The notes beneath the pieces were generated by a model. The model worked only from the letters and a program-made list of their open reading frames with translations, made no database searches and was not told where the DNA came from. A DNA stretch of 64,000 nt. Origin: Shewanella yunxiaonensis. GTDB taxonomy: Bacteria > Pseudomonadota > Gammaproteobacteria > Enterobacterales > Shewanellaceae. The number at the start of each line of letters is the position of its first letter. The first letter of the stretch is position 1. The stretch covers positions 1,771,001 through 1,835,000 of the forward strand of contig NZ_CP073587.1 of the NCBI RefSeq assembly GCF_018223345.1, in the 5' to 3' direction. Shown here one piece after another: positions 50,739 to 54,886 of the stretch. Both the position numbers and the translations under genes were made by a program.

Positions 50739-50946
50739 GGACCGATTCCTATAAAATGATAACTATTTACTAGGGTCGCATGGATAGGGGGCAGGCTTCA
50801 AGGCCTTGCTGCAATAGGGTTTCTTGGCTGCTTAAGGCTTGTACTTTGGCGTATGGTAAACGGTATTTACATGGTAGCGAATGCAACTGATTAGCGCTAA
50901 AGTTGTCAAACAGAATCAATACCAATGCATAAATATCGGATACGCC

Positions 50947-51972
50947 ATGAACAGAAAATTCATCAGAGGCATCCGCCGCAAGCATCCTTGGGATATCGCC
51001 GAAAACGAGGTCACGCCTGAAGCGGTATTTCGCGATCGTCGGCGGATTACAGCGATGCTGGGACTGGGTGCGCTTAGTGCCAGTCTGCCAGGTTATGTGC
51101 AAGCCGGGATCTTCGATCTGTTTGGTGAAGATCAGCCATTATTTGCGACTCGGGCGTTAAACTTTACGGTAAATTCGCATTATCAGACCGCTGAACAGCA
51201 GACGCCATACGATAAAGTGATCCGGCATAATAACTTTTATGAATTTGGAACGGGTAAACAGGATCCATTTGAGAATGCACAAAAGCTAAAAGTTAACCCC
51301 TGGCAACTGAATATCGAGGGGCTGGTTGATAAACCGCTGACACTGGATTACGACGATTTGTATAAGTTAATCCCGCTGGAGCAGCGTATTTATCGCTTAC
51401 GCTGTGTCGAAGCATGGTCTATGGTAATCCCTTGGGTAGGCTTTCCGTTAGCTGCACTATTGAAAAAAGTAGGGGTAAGTAGCAAAGCCTCTCATGTGGC
51501 ATTTGAAACGCTGTTTGATCCTGAACAGATGCCCGGTCAACGTAATCCGTTAATGGGAGGGGGGATTCATTATCCTTATGTTGAAGGCTTGCGGCTTGAT
51601 GAAGCGATGAATGAGCTGACGTTCCTGGCTGTAGGTTTGTATGATCAAACGTTATCGCCTCAGAGTGGCGCGCCTATCAGATTAGTTGTGCCCTGGAAAT
51701 ATGGCTTTAAGAGCATCAAGTCTGTTGTACGGATCCGTCTGGTAGATAAAGAACCGCCAAACAGCTGGCACCAACTCGTACCGCATGAGTATGGATTCTA
51801 TGCCAATGTCAATCCTGAAGTAGATCATCCCCGCTGGTCTCAGGCGAGTGAACGACGTATCGCCGCTGGTGGGCTGTTCAACGCGAAACGTATAGCGACA
51901 CTGCCTTTTAATGGCTATGGCGAGCAGGTGGCTGCGATGTATCAAGGAATGGATCTAAGGAAATACTTCTGA
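50947..51972 (+). CDS. msrP: Periplasmic methionine sulfoxide reductase catalytic subunit MsrP (YedY)
   Basis: 341 aa from the ATG of MNRKFIRGIRR; the frame is open 22 codons earlier without ribosome-site or family support. It carries a Tat signal (RDRRRITAMLGLG, near residue 29-41). The sulfite-oxidase fold binds molybdopterin with the Mo ligand Cys153 in YRLRCVEAWSMV; GGGIHYPYVEGLRLDEAM and VPWKYGFKSIKSVV are near-identical to E. coli MsrP. It reduces free and protein-bound MetO in the periplasm with electrons from MsrQ. Its stop overlaps the msrQ start by one base (TGATG). Confidence 0.97.
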   Translation: MNRKFIRGIRRKHPWDIAENEVTPEAVFRDRRRITAMLGLGALSASLPGYVQAGIFDLFGEDQPLFATRALNFTVNSHYQTAEQQTPYDKVIRHNNFYEFGTGKQDPFENAQKLKVNPWQLNIEGLVDKPLTLDYDDLYKLIPLEQRIYRLRCVEAWSMVIPWVGFPLAALLKKVGVSSKASHVAFETLFDPEQMPGQRNPLMGGGIHYPYVEGLRLDEAMNELTFLAVGLYDQTLSPQSGAPIRLVVPWKYGFKSIKSVVRIRLVDKEPPNSWHQLVPHEYGFYANVNPEVDHPRWSQASERRIAAGGLFNAKRIATLPFNGYGEQVAAMYQGMDLRKYF

Positions 51973-52568
51973 TGTGGCGTATTTCTCGCCGAGCGTTATT
52001 TTGGGGAAAGGTGCTATTGCATGTCGCCGCTGCATTACCCATAGCACTATTGGTTCTGGCGGTTTACCGCGATGATGCCGGTGGCGATCCGGTGCAATAC
52101 ATCATCCATTTCTTAGGAAAGGGCGCGCTGAATCTTTTGCTGCTGACCTTATTGGTGTCACCTGTGGCCGCTTGGACCAAACAAGGAATGCTGGTGCAAC
52201 TAAGGCGACCACTGGGTTTATGGACATTCTGCTACGCCTGTTTGCACTTGCTGGCATACATCAGTCTTGACCTGCTGTTCGCTTGGCAATTGCTGTTGCA
52301 GGAAGTCATTAAGCGTCCTTACATCGTGGTCGGAGCCTGTGCCTGGTTGATCCTTTTATCGTTAGCTTTAACCTCGTTTAAAGCCGCACAGCGGCGGATG
52401 GGTAAACGATGGCAGCAGCTGCACTATGGCATTTATCCCGCAGTACTGTTAGTGACGATACATTACTATTGGTCCGTTAAATCTGAAATCATTGAACCCA
52501 GTCTCTATATTTTGCTAGCGCTACTGTTGTTATCTTTTCGATTACGTAAATTTTCGCGAAAAGTATGA
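51972..52568 (+). CDS. msrQ: Heme-binding quinol-linked subunit MsrQ (YedZ)
   Basis: 198 aa inner-membrane protein with six helices and the conserved heme-ligand histidines (LHLLAYISLD, QLHYGIYPA, TIHYYWSVK). It belongs to the ferric-reductase-like family and passes electrons from quinol to MsrP. It is translationally coupled to msrP. Its stop lies 3 bp from that of the convergent diguanylate cyclase gene. Confidence 0.95.
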   Translation: MWRISRRALFWGKVLLHVAAALPIALLVLAVYRDDAGGDPVQYIIHFLGKGALNLLLLTLLVSPVAAWTKQGMLVQLRRPLGLWTFCYACLHLLAYISLDLLFAWQLLLQEVIKRPYIVVGACAWLILLSLALTSFKAAQRRMGKRWQQLHYGIYPAVLLVTIHYYWSVKSEIIEPSLYILLALLLLSFRLRKFSRKV

Positions 52569-52571
52569 AGG

Positions 52572-53888
52572 TCATCTATGCACGGCATCGTGGGATGCTG
52601 ATGTCGACGGCATTGTCGGGTGGCGTTGCTTTTTGGTTTCATACATGGCCGAATCTGCATGATTGAGTAATGCGGCGAGTGTGTGACCATCTGACGGATA
52701 AACGCTGATCCCGATGCTTAAGCCGACATCCAAGTGCTGCTCGTTCAGGGGAATTGCGACGCCAGTATTGCGAATTTTACTGGCAACTAATTCAATTTCT
52801 TCGTATTTATGCACAGGCTCCAGCCACACGATAAATTCATCACCGCCAAAACGGGCGATCATGTCAGATGCCCGCAAGCTATGTTGTAAACGTTTAGCGA
52901 TTTCTTTCAGTACAGCGTCCCCCGCCGCATGACCAAGGCTATCATTAATTGGTTTAAACCGGTCTAAGTCGATGAACAACAGTGCCGCTTGTTGTTGCTG
53001 CCGTTTACATCTTTCAATGGCTAATTCAATTTGGACGTTGGCCGCTCCACGATTAAGGACACCGGTAAGATCATCATGTTCCGCCATATGCCGCAGTTTT
53101 TCCTGCTGGATCTGTAGCCGTTGAGTCTGATCTTCAACTTCCTTCTGCAGCTGATCGCGCTTGTGCGTGGCAGCCAATAATTCCTGTTTCATTCGATTAA
53201 ACTCTTCGGCTACTTCTCCAAACTCCTCACCTTTTGGCATTTTGACTTTACTGAAAAGATCACCGGCCGCAAGGTCCTTGATCCCCTTTTTCAGGGTACT
53301 TAGATGCATTTTGAAACGGGCCAGTGTTTGCAACGAAAACAGCGTCACCAGAATAGCAATAAGTGACAGCAGGATGCCGTTGAAATACAGGTGTTGTACC
53401 TGCATGCGACGCGCCTTATTGACCACTTGGGTTTGTAATCGCAATAGATCTTCACTCATGGATTGGATAATAGCGCTGTATCTGGCGGTCAGTACCATCG
53501 TGCCATTAGCATCAACGGGTTGTTGATTAATGAAATTTTGACGGGAAAGATTAAGCAGCACGCCAATGTTATCTTCGTGACGTTTCAGGCTGTTCAACAA
53601 TTTTAATTCGGTGCTATCCATGGGTAATGCTAAGGCTACATCAATGTGGTGGTGTAAATTCTCCAACGCTCTTGTGGTGTCGTTGATCGCCTTCTGATCT
53701 TGAAATTGCTGCAATAGCCAGAGATTGGAACGTAGCAGATCGACCCTTAGCTGAACTTCAGTGAGATGATTAATCAGTTCAAATGAACGGATCATCATCG
53801 TACGTTGATTGAGTAAGGCGATACCATGGGCCAAAGCCAATATCACGCACAACACCACCAGTAACTTTAACCGTTTAGATATTCTCAT
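52572..53888 (-). CDS. HAMP-GGDEF diguanylate cyclase, partner of the upstream binding protein
   Basis: 438 aa. Transmembrane helix 1 (about 8-28), a helical periplasmic domain of about 140 residues (30-168), helix 2 (170-192), HAMP (193-245), a short coiled-coil and a GGDEF domain (about 270-420). The active loop GGDEF (348-352) is intact and the I-site RASD (339-342) precedes it by five residues, so active, feedback-controlled c-di-GMP synthesis is expected. The start codon overlaps (ATGA) the reading-frame end of the solute-binding protein gene and has only a weak ribosome site, which suggests translational coupling. I infer that the binding protein gives the periplasmic domain its ligand information. 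Confidence 0.88.
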   Translation of the reverse strand: MRISKRLKLLVVLCVILALAHGIALLNQRTMMIRSFELINHLTEVQLRVDLLRSNLWLLQQFQDQKAINDTTRALENLHHHIDVALALPMDSTELKLLNSLKRHEDNIGVLLNLSRQNFINQQPVDANGTMVLTARYSAIIQSMSEDLLRLQTQVVNKARRMQVQHLYFNGILLSLIAILVTLFSLQTLARFKMHLSTLKKGIKDLAAGDLFSKVKMPKGEEFGEVAEEFNRMKQELLAATHKRDQLQKEVEDQTQRLQIQQEKLRHMAEHDDLTGVLNRGAANVQIELAIERCKRQQQQAALLFIDLDRFKPINDSLGHAAGDAVLKEIAKRLQHSLRASDMIARFGGDEFIVWLEPVHKYEEIELVASKIRNTGVAIPLNEQHLDVGLSIGISVYPSDGHTLAALLNHADSAMYETKKQRHPTMPSTSASHDAVHR

Positions 53889-54886
53889 TCTTTACGTACC
53901 AGTGATTTGTGGATAACGCGATTAAGCGCTGATGGGTCAATATAGTTACGATAATCAGGGATGTTAGTGGTAGTCACTAACTGCGCTTCTATAGCCCAAC
54001 GGGCCTGTGCTTGCAGATTACTTACGAGCGTATTGTCTAACGATAAACGAAATTGATAGTCTGGTCATAAGGCTGAAACCTCTGTTACAGGCACTTTGAG
54101 GTAGTCAGAGACAATCTGTTGCGATTGCTCAGGTTGTTCAATAATAAACTGAATCGCTTGATTTAGCGCTCTCAGTACCTGAATGTGTTGTTGCAGATTG
54201 GTCACAGTGCTATTGCGTAATGCCAAAAGATTAAATGACAGACTATAAATACCTTTGGTTTTGAACTGAAAAACCTGTGTGGGATATTGCTGTTGTAACT
54301 GAAAAGCAAAAGGTTCCCATACCGATATTGCGTCAACAGCACCGGCCATTAATGCGTCACCAATGTCATAAGGCGCAATATCCATGCGTTGTAATTGCTG
54401 TTGGGGATGTCCGGTCATAAGTAATATGGCATCCATAAAGTACTCACTGGCACTGCCTGATACGATTCCCACTTTATGAGAAAGTAAATCACCAGGTTGA
54501 CGTATGCCGGACGATGCTTTAGCAATGATTTTTATATCATTATCAGATTCGGCAAAACTACTGATGATGCTAAAATCATTGCGTGCAAAGCTGTTAAACA
54601 TCACCACCGTTTCCGAGCTTGTTGCCAGATCCGCATCGCCGCGTGTTAGCGCATTAAAACAGTCATAGCCACCTTTTATGGGCAGCAATTGCACGGTCAG
54701 TTGTTGCTCCCTGAAAAAGCCCATTCGTTCGGCAATAATCACCGGTGAAGAGAGTGGAGAGGTGGAAACCGCTATGCGTAACGGTTGCGTGGTAGGCAAA
54801 AGCACATAGGCAGGATTGGCAGAAACACCAATCCAAAGAAGCACACTGCCTAACACCAAAAACAGCAGCAAAAGGTACTTTTCCAT
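53885..54886 (-). pseudogene. NMT1/THI5-like solute-binding protein, interrupted by one in-frame TGA
   Basis: The frame 54886-54065 gives 273 aa: an N-terminal membrane anchor (about 4-22) and a periplasmic binding fold of the SsuA/THI5 type (LRIAVSTSPLSSPVIIAERMGFF, LTVQLLPIKGGYDC, GDADLATSSE, AVDAISVWEPFA). A TGA at 54067-54065 stops it, but the same frame, without any shift, goes on for 59 sense codons (PDYQFRLSLDNTL, ARWAIEAQL, IPDYRNYIDPSALNRV) to a TGA that overlaps the cyclase ATG. In family members the residue before PDY/PQY is, as I recall, usually Trp, so this looks like a TGG to TGA change or a read-through codon. With it the product would be 333 aa, a normal family length. No ABC permease or ATPase gene is near. 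Confidence 0.82.
54065..54067 (-). other. In-frame TGA inside the binding-protein gene
   Basis: The codon reads TGA and is followed by C (TGAC context, known as a leaky stop in bacteria). Sense coding resumes at once in the same frame on the 3' side (CCA GAC TAT CAA). It is the only interruption seen in the gene. Confidence 0.85.

Follow-up and report, generated by a model that had tools for sequence, protein, structure and literature searches.

A gene for a solute-binding protein (SBP) that lies directly upstream of a gene for a diguanylate cyclase, with no transporter genes beside it, raises the question whether the binding protein serves transport or senses a ligand for the cyclase. The two genes are on the minus strand of a 64,000-nucleotide stretch of Shewanella yunxiaonensis DNA, the whole of which was analyzed and is referred to here as the window. 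An initial annotation had described them as an SBP overlapping a HAMP-GGDEF cyclase and had interpreted the pair as a ligand-sensing c-di-GMP module analogous to NspS-MbaA. The features of the locus are the following.

52572..53888, minus strand: diguanylate cyclase ORF, 438 aa
52623..53084, minus strand: GGDEF domain, residues 269-422 (Pfam E=2.6e-45)
52833..52847, minus strand: GGDEF active-site motif, intact and invariant in 43 aligned proteins
52863..52874, minus strand: RxxD inhibitory-site (I-site) motif, with R339 and D342 invariant in 43 aligned proteins
53175..53297, minus strand: HAMP-like linker, residues 198-238 (19.4 bits, under the Pfam cut-off of 25)
53313..53399, minus strand: second transmembrane segment, residues about 164-192 (hydropathy)
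53400..53801, minus strand: periplasmic helical sensor, residues about 30-163, predicted four-helix arrangement (model, hydropathy and alignment)
53802..53876, minus strand: first transmembrane segment, residues about 5-29 (hydropathy and model)
53885..53888, minus strand: ATGA, in which the stop of the read-through SBP frame (TGA, 53885-53887) overlaps the cyclase start codon
53885..54064, minus strand: continuation of the SBP frame 3' of the premature TGA, 59 codons and a stop, resembling the C-terminus of intact relatives
54065-54067, minus strand: premature in-frame stop (TGA) of the SBP ORF, in an alignment column with one identical residue in all 42 genus relatives
54065..54886, minus strand: SBP ORF as it stands, 273 aa and a stop, NMT1/THI5-like (PF09084)

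The 438-aa protein has a GGDEF domain with both the active-site and the I-site motifs and is thus predicted to be a diguanylate cyclase; no EAL domain was found in it by Pfam. Its structural model (mean pLDDT 88.3, pTM 0.49) contains long helices at residues 3-62, 65-86, 92-120, and 127-207, and since this helical model spans two membrane segments, the approximately 130 intervening residues are predicted to form a helical sensor. No relative of the sensor was found in the PDB by sequence, and the lists of structural matches of the cyclase were occupied by GGDEF domains; the sensor itself is described as helical, with four helices. Thus, the architecture claimed for the cyclase stood with regard to the GGDEF domain, the I-site and, in the model, the helical sensor, while the HAMP domain was recognized only below threshold. 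Convergent with the cyclase gene, and ending 3 nt from its stop, are two plus-strand ORFs at 50881-52572 that we take to be MsrP and MsrQ. This spacing leaves no room for a terminator, and no terminator-like site was found between the cyclase stop and these ORFs. The names MsrP, MsrQ, RmuC, and KdsB for the neighbors are presumptive and were assigned from the look of the sequence.

The SBP matches PF09084 (NMT1) with 73.8 bits, which is above the Pfam cut-off of 20.5, and has an N-terminal hydrophobic segment at residues 1-26 by hydropathy, as expected for the NMT1/THI5-like SBP that had been annotated upstream of the cyclase. The other Pfam matches at E<=1 were NMT1_2 and, weakly, OpuAC, and the PotD-type family was absent among them. 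The SBP had been given as about 333 aa long, ending in an ATGA overlap with the cyclase. However, the ORF stops after 273 aa at the TGA at 54065-54067, which is 176 nt before the cyclase start, and it is the read-through frame that has the ATGA overlap. The same 4-nt overlap is present in many relatives. The profile match of the SBP extends across the TGA, with this one TGA inside the match, and the 59-codon tail can be aligned with intact relatives; the continuation therefore looks like the true C-terminus of the SBP. A model of the read-through protein has a pLDDT of 93.8, and the segment lost behind the TGA contains a strand (277-282) and a helix (285-300), both predicted with high confidence. 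Because of this loss the 273-aa product is probably unstable. What had been observed at this locus was therefore right for the cyclase, the NMT1-type SBP and the lack of ABC neighbors and wrong for the overlap and the length of the SBP.

The pair is conserved well beyond this strain, a check that the initial annotation had set. When the 273-aa SBP was used as query, 48 of the 97 genus genomes gave a match at E<=0.001, 43 of them strong (E<=6.1e-38, own genome included) and 5 weak only. A profile of the first 195 residues of the cyclase found exactly the 43 genomes with a strong SBP and none of the other 54, so that 43 genomes have both the SBP and the cyclase sensor, 54 have neither, and none has one alone. 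Since the sensor profile was built from those same 43 cyclases, the informative part of this result is the absence from the 54 genomes. In all 42 genus relatives the SBP gene lies directly upstream of the cyclase gene on the same strand, with a gap of -7 to +280 nt; the genes overlap in 20 relatives and, overlaps counted, lie within 16 nt of each other in 37. The SBP ORF is intact in 42/42 (322-370 aa), and the cyclases of all 42 carry the GGDEF and RxxD motifs. A simple lipobox pattern was found at the start of 14 of the 43 genus SBPs. When eight window neighbors were used as queries, some were found in 18 of the 42 genus regions and none in the remaining 24, and they were absent from all 20 order and 12 class regions. 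Because the neighbors are missing from 24 regions, the pair is kept in different contexts. Chance adjacency was rejected since the pair recurs in 42/42 relatives with similar spacing in differing gene neighborhoods. These results show that the SBP-cyclase pair is real, widely conserved, and co-inherited.

Genes for an ABC importer were looked for next to the SBP, using models made from the 11 PF00528 matches and the best 30 PF00005 matches of the own genome. As annotated, the search of about 8 kb upstream and about 10 kb downstream of the pair found no ABC permease or ATPase gene; in this genome a PF00528 permease match comes no closer than about 400 kb and a PF00005 match no closer than about 53 kb. 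The search covered 155 SBP regions (42 genus, 1 own, 20 order, 12 class and the best 80 of 107 named loci) of about 10-19 kb each, some of them cut by contig ends and with species overlapping between the sets. A permease and an ATPase together were found in 0/155, so the SBP homologues of the genus, order, and class regions stand without a complete transporter, which was another expectation of the annotation. An ATPase alone was found in 9 of the 155, at 2.9 kb or more from the SBP. In the 63 own, genus, and order regions there were no ABC parts of either kind, and for this reason the possibility that the locus is the remnant of an ABC transporter was rejected. Other NMT1-type hits of the genus supplied 18 control regions, of which 5 contained an ABC part and 4 both a permease and an ATPase; this control set was weaker than planned, one of its regions (L301) being without an ORF found by the SBP model. 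Since only 4/18 control regions have both parts, missing ABC neighbors alone do not set this SBP family apart in the genus, and the contrast with other genus SBPs is modest. Seven control regions were inspected, and in four of them the SBP precedes a 931-1022-aa ORF with a kinase motif. At L306, L307, L309, and L310, a different NMT1-type SBP of the genus is followed directly by an ORF of 931-1022 aa that has a histidine-kinase motif and whose sensor is unrelated, and these loci appear by sequence to be a second SBP-receptor cassette in the genus. L302 (5064-8290) has three successively overlapping ORFs: one of 340 aa that is SBP-like, one of 493 aa, and one of 255 aa with the look of a response regulator.

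Outside the genus the SBP is still followed by a receptor. The order-level set of 345 genomes, own and other genus members included, gave sensor-profile matches in 29 genomes (E<=1e-6) and SBP-profile matches in 40 (E<=1e-20). All 29 have the SBP adjacent by coordinates. In the 11 genomes with the SBP and no sensor match at E<=1e-6, a GGDEF protein is encoded directly downstream in 11/11, and five of them show a weak sensor match. There are 22 order-level SBP loci outside the genus, and in each of the 20 examined a same-strand protein matching the cyclase profile follows directly. Pfam, run on five of these 20 partners, gave two GGDEF and three GGDEF-EAL proteins; the other 15 are too short for an added EAL domain because they have only 423-460 aa. 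At the class level, 11 of 369 genomes besides our own carry 12 SBP loci, and all 12 are followed by receptors, namely, eight histidine kinases (seven by Pfam, of which L256 has HisKA without the ATPase domain, and L255 by motif only), three GGDEF-EAL proteins (that of L250 being split into two ORFs), and one GGDEF-HD protein (L252), the N-terminal part of which is weakly Cache-like, that is, a different sensor. In Vibrio, the genus of G191, an SBP match at E<=1e-10 was found in 55/99 genomes.

A scan of species genomes gave 107 SBP loci, and the best 80 of these were analyzed as named loci; they share species with the unnamed sets and the counts are not additive. The best 80 of 107 include loci from Shewanella, Vibrio, Salinivibrio, Grimontia, Motilimonas, Neptuniibacter, Marinobacterium, Pontibacterium, and two Geobacteraceae MAGs, with Shewanella fodinae (74%) as the closest relative. 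The downstream ORF matches the receptor (cyclase) profile in 78 of the best 80 of 107, weakly in L218, L225, and L229, and the downstream ORFs of L218 and L229 are hybrid kinases by Pfam. The two loci without a receptor match are L192, at a contig end, and L213, which has no receptor. At L213 (5866-7474), from a Neptuniibacter MAG, the SBP and a response-regulator-like ORF are present as in its relative L200 and the intervening receptor gene is missing. In another locus, L146, an ORF, an SBP gene, and a GGDEF-EAL gene stand in a row like scrABC. ScrA is a PLP enzyme, and the upstream protein of L146 did not match a PLP enzyme but is weakly glycosyltransferase-like; L146 was therefore rejected as a direct relative of ScrABC.

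The sensors of these receptors were compared over their N-terminal 200 residues. Nine GGDEF-EAL partners (six checked by Pfam; L182, L195, and L205 assigned by length and similarity) aligned with the own cyclase sensor over 200/202 columns (hhalign 99.4%, identity 26%), and nine kinase partners (from seven class-level loci without L254, and from L218 and L229) over 191/202 columns (hhalign 97.2%, identity 10%). Because aligned hydrophobic helices can inflate hhalign scores, a control alignment was made, and the sensor of another SBP-kinase pair, in a small alignment of four, did not align (hhalign 0.4%). Outside the genus the output varies among GGDEF, GGDEF-EAL, GGDEF-HD, and histidine kinase, and the sensor in front of it is usually related. 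In addition, SBP divergence tracks the cyclase sensor more closely than the catalytic domain: the partial r between SBP distances and those of the sensor or the GGDEF domain is 0.50 vs 0.34 (n=43) and, in a larger set, 0.77 vs 0.27 (n=64), these correlations being indirect and coming from one operon. At the phylum level, an SBP match at E<=1e-20 is present in 46 of 398 genomes. Nine of the loci outside the class were checked (L320-L328, E 1.8e-68 to 3.2e-53). The neighbor is a HAMP receptor in five of them (four with HisKA, one cut off after PAS) and an ABC permease or ATPase in three (L324, L327, and L328), while at L320 no ORF of 100 aa on the same strand follows the SBP within 400 nt. Thus, at greater distance the signaling SBP clade shades into transport SBPs.

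What the SBP binds can be guessed from its fold. The best PDB folds for the read-through model are SsuA (TM-score by query 0.74) and TauA (0.73), with 16-20% identity, and the next structural matches are pyrimidine and thiamin binders. The best PDB sequence match of the SBP profile is the Candida protein 2x7p (4e-10), which has the same fold. With the SsuA family TIGR01728 the 273-aa ORF scores 82.5 bits, below the NCBIfam cut-off of 163.5. Because this support is at the level of fold, the ligand class that had been suggested, a pyrimidine or a sulfonate, is a guess, one that agrees with the SsuA and TauA folds and then with the thiamin-pyrimidine binders.

The explanation that best accounts for the whole, and that we consider quite probable, is a co-inherited sensory cassette in which the SBP captures a solute, docks on the sensor, and gates c-di-GMP synthesis. 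The SBP, either membrane-tethered or free in the periplasm, would capture a small extracellular solute and would dock on the helical periplasmic sensor of the cyclase dimer; the change would then be relayed via TM2, HAMP, and the coiled coil to switch c-di-GMP synthesis by activation or inhibition. Such a cassette would work in the manner of NspS-MbaA, with a different SBP family and only a cyclase as output, and by this analogy it is the best reading of the pair. We also lean, with somewhat less confidence, to the broader proposal that a clade of SBPs with the NMT1/SsuA fold left transport and became a dedicated co-receptor, accompanied with few exceptions by one helical HAMP sensor plugged into varied outputs. 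These outputs would be c-di-GMP synthesis, GGDEF-EAL, histidine kinases and, once, GGDEF-HD with another sensor, and this candidate solute-sensing system would be spread over Shewanella, Vibrio, and other Gammaproteobacteria. The signal is known for few c-di-GMP enzymes, and a conserved cassette with a soluble SBP offers a direct route to one. Output swapping behind one sensor would also let the same periplasmic input be compared between a cyclase and a kinase.

That the two genes are adjacent and co-inherited is no proof that the SBP binds the sensor. If the SBP instead served an ABC importer encoded elsewhere and the cyclase were a mere operon neighbor, then its sharing the fold of ABC sulfonate/taurine SBPs, the permease or ATPase genes next to three phylum-level homologues, and the 11 PF00528 matches elsewhere in the genome would be explained. 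The strict co-occurrence of the SBP with the receptor sensor in the genus would not be, nor would 0/155 regions with permease and ATPase, nor an SBP-receptor adjacency that stays while the output domain changes, and we regard a distant importer as very improbable. It is also conceivable that the two genes are co-transcribed for the same condition and that their products never touch. Against this speak the related sensor domain, which is found behind the SBP also in receptors with kinase output, and the SBP divergence, which goes with the sensor more than with the catalytic domain; this explanation is quite unlikely. The sensory cassette fits both the conservation and the analogy with NspS-MbaA on which the initial interpretation was built, and what that interpretation missed is the premature TGA.

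In this strain the module may be impaired by the TGA. If the stop is real, the cyclase probably runs without ligand control here, and if the two genes are in addition translationally coupled, the level of the cyclase is probably lower as well. One explanation, confined to this genome, is that the module is a decaying relic in which the SBP gene is a pseudogene and the cyclase follows it or acts alone. The TGA removes 59 further codons including the high-confidence strand and helix, and an SBP gene in two pieces beside an open cyclase frame is also seen in L199 (named Vibrio) and in L357 and L358 (Vibrio), in drafts that may contain errors; a cyclase may therefore persist without its partner for some time. 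However, the cyclase is intact, and the own-branch amino-acid changes give no sign of relaxed constraint, and decay is held to be possible but less likely than not. These changes fall in 23/270 columns before the stop, 6/59 after it, and 17/429 in the cyclase, and the stem of the two nearest relatives has 15, 5, and 9 changes, respectively; relative to these two, dS is saturated both for the own cyclase and for the part of the own SBP that precedes the stop, so that no ratio is given there. The changes show no concentration behind the stop, and the 59-codon tail is not decayed; accordingly, the stop is either recent, erroneous, or tolerated. Alternatively, and again for this genome alone, the TGA may have arisen in sequencing or assembly or may be usefully read through, so that the full-length SBP works. 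A single stop in an otherwise conserved frame, found in 0/42 genus relatives, agrees with this, whereas an assembly of one contig with 100% completeness speaks against it and signs of recoding were not noticed; we hold it, like decay, to be possible but less likely than not. The premature stop is also a warning that a binding-protein gene can break while its cyclase stays.

How does the proposed cassette compare with known systems? Contact of the kind proposed here is made in TorT-TorS, a binding protein and a two-pass receptor to whose helical sensor it docks; that pair differs in its histidine-kinase output and in its SBP family. The ABC binding proteins SsuA and TauA are the best fold matches of our SBP, and an ABC importer has adjacent permease and ATPase genes, whereas no ABC genes are near our SBP. 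In Salmonella, STM1987 is a diguanylate cyclase and ArtI belongs to an arginine uptake system. According to the cited passage, the periplasmic binding protein ArtI is needed for the arginine response via STM1987 (PMC8846402); STM1987 differs from our cyclase in having a dCache_1 sensor. In ScrB-ScrC of Vibrio parahaemolyticus, a periplasmic protein that binds the signal switches a c-di-GMP enzyme of the same operon (PMC10269520), as is proposed here, but ScrC is a bifunctional enzyme and its signal is made by ScrA. Of the periplasmic-binding-protein domains inside c-di-GMP enzymes, SBP_bac_3 alone had been studied, as stated in the passage cited from a review (PMC8846402). In the open-licence literature we found no description of an NMT1-type SBP paired with a GGDEF enzyme, which may have been described elsewhere earlier, and no mention of VC1367 of Vibrio cholerae; NMT1 and diguanylate cyclase are both mentioned in PMC9602780.

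Receptor-switching SBPs form an accepted class according to the passage cited here, and c-di-GMP enzymes are among the receptors (PMC9602780). Like the SBPs of this class, ours is without transporter partners (0/155 regions), which is not so for three of the nine phylum homologues. The closest system is NspS-MbaA, a PotD-type SBP with a GGDEF-EAL enzyme encoded by overlapping genes (PMC9993111). What NspS-MbaA of Vibrio cholerae and Sinorhizobium meliloti share with our pair, in the parts of the sources cited, is a signaling SBP gene that overlaps or adjoins the gene for a two-pass c-di-GMP enzyme with a periplasmic sensor (PMC9993111, PMC11575326). The SBP gene is directly upstream or overlapping in 42/42 genus relatives, and in the window the overlap is that of the read-through frame only. 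The differences are that NspS is a PotD-type polyamine SBP and ours is of the NMT1 type, and that MbaA has GGDEF and EAL whereas our enzyme has GGDEF only. By analogy, then, the cassette would be of a known kind, the SBP-controlled receptor, and new with respect to NspS-MbaA in its SBP family and its cyclase-only output.
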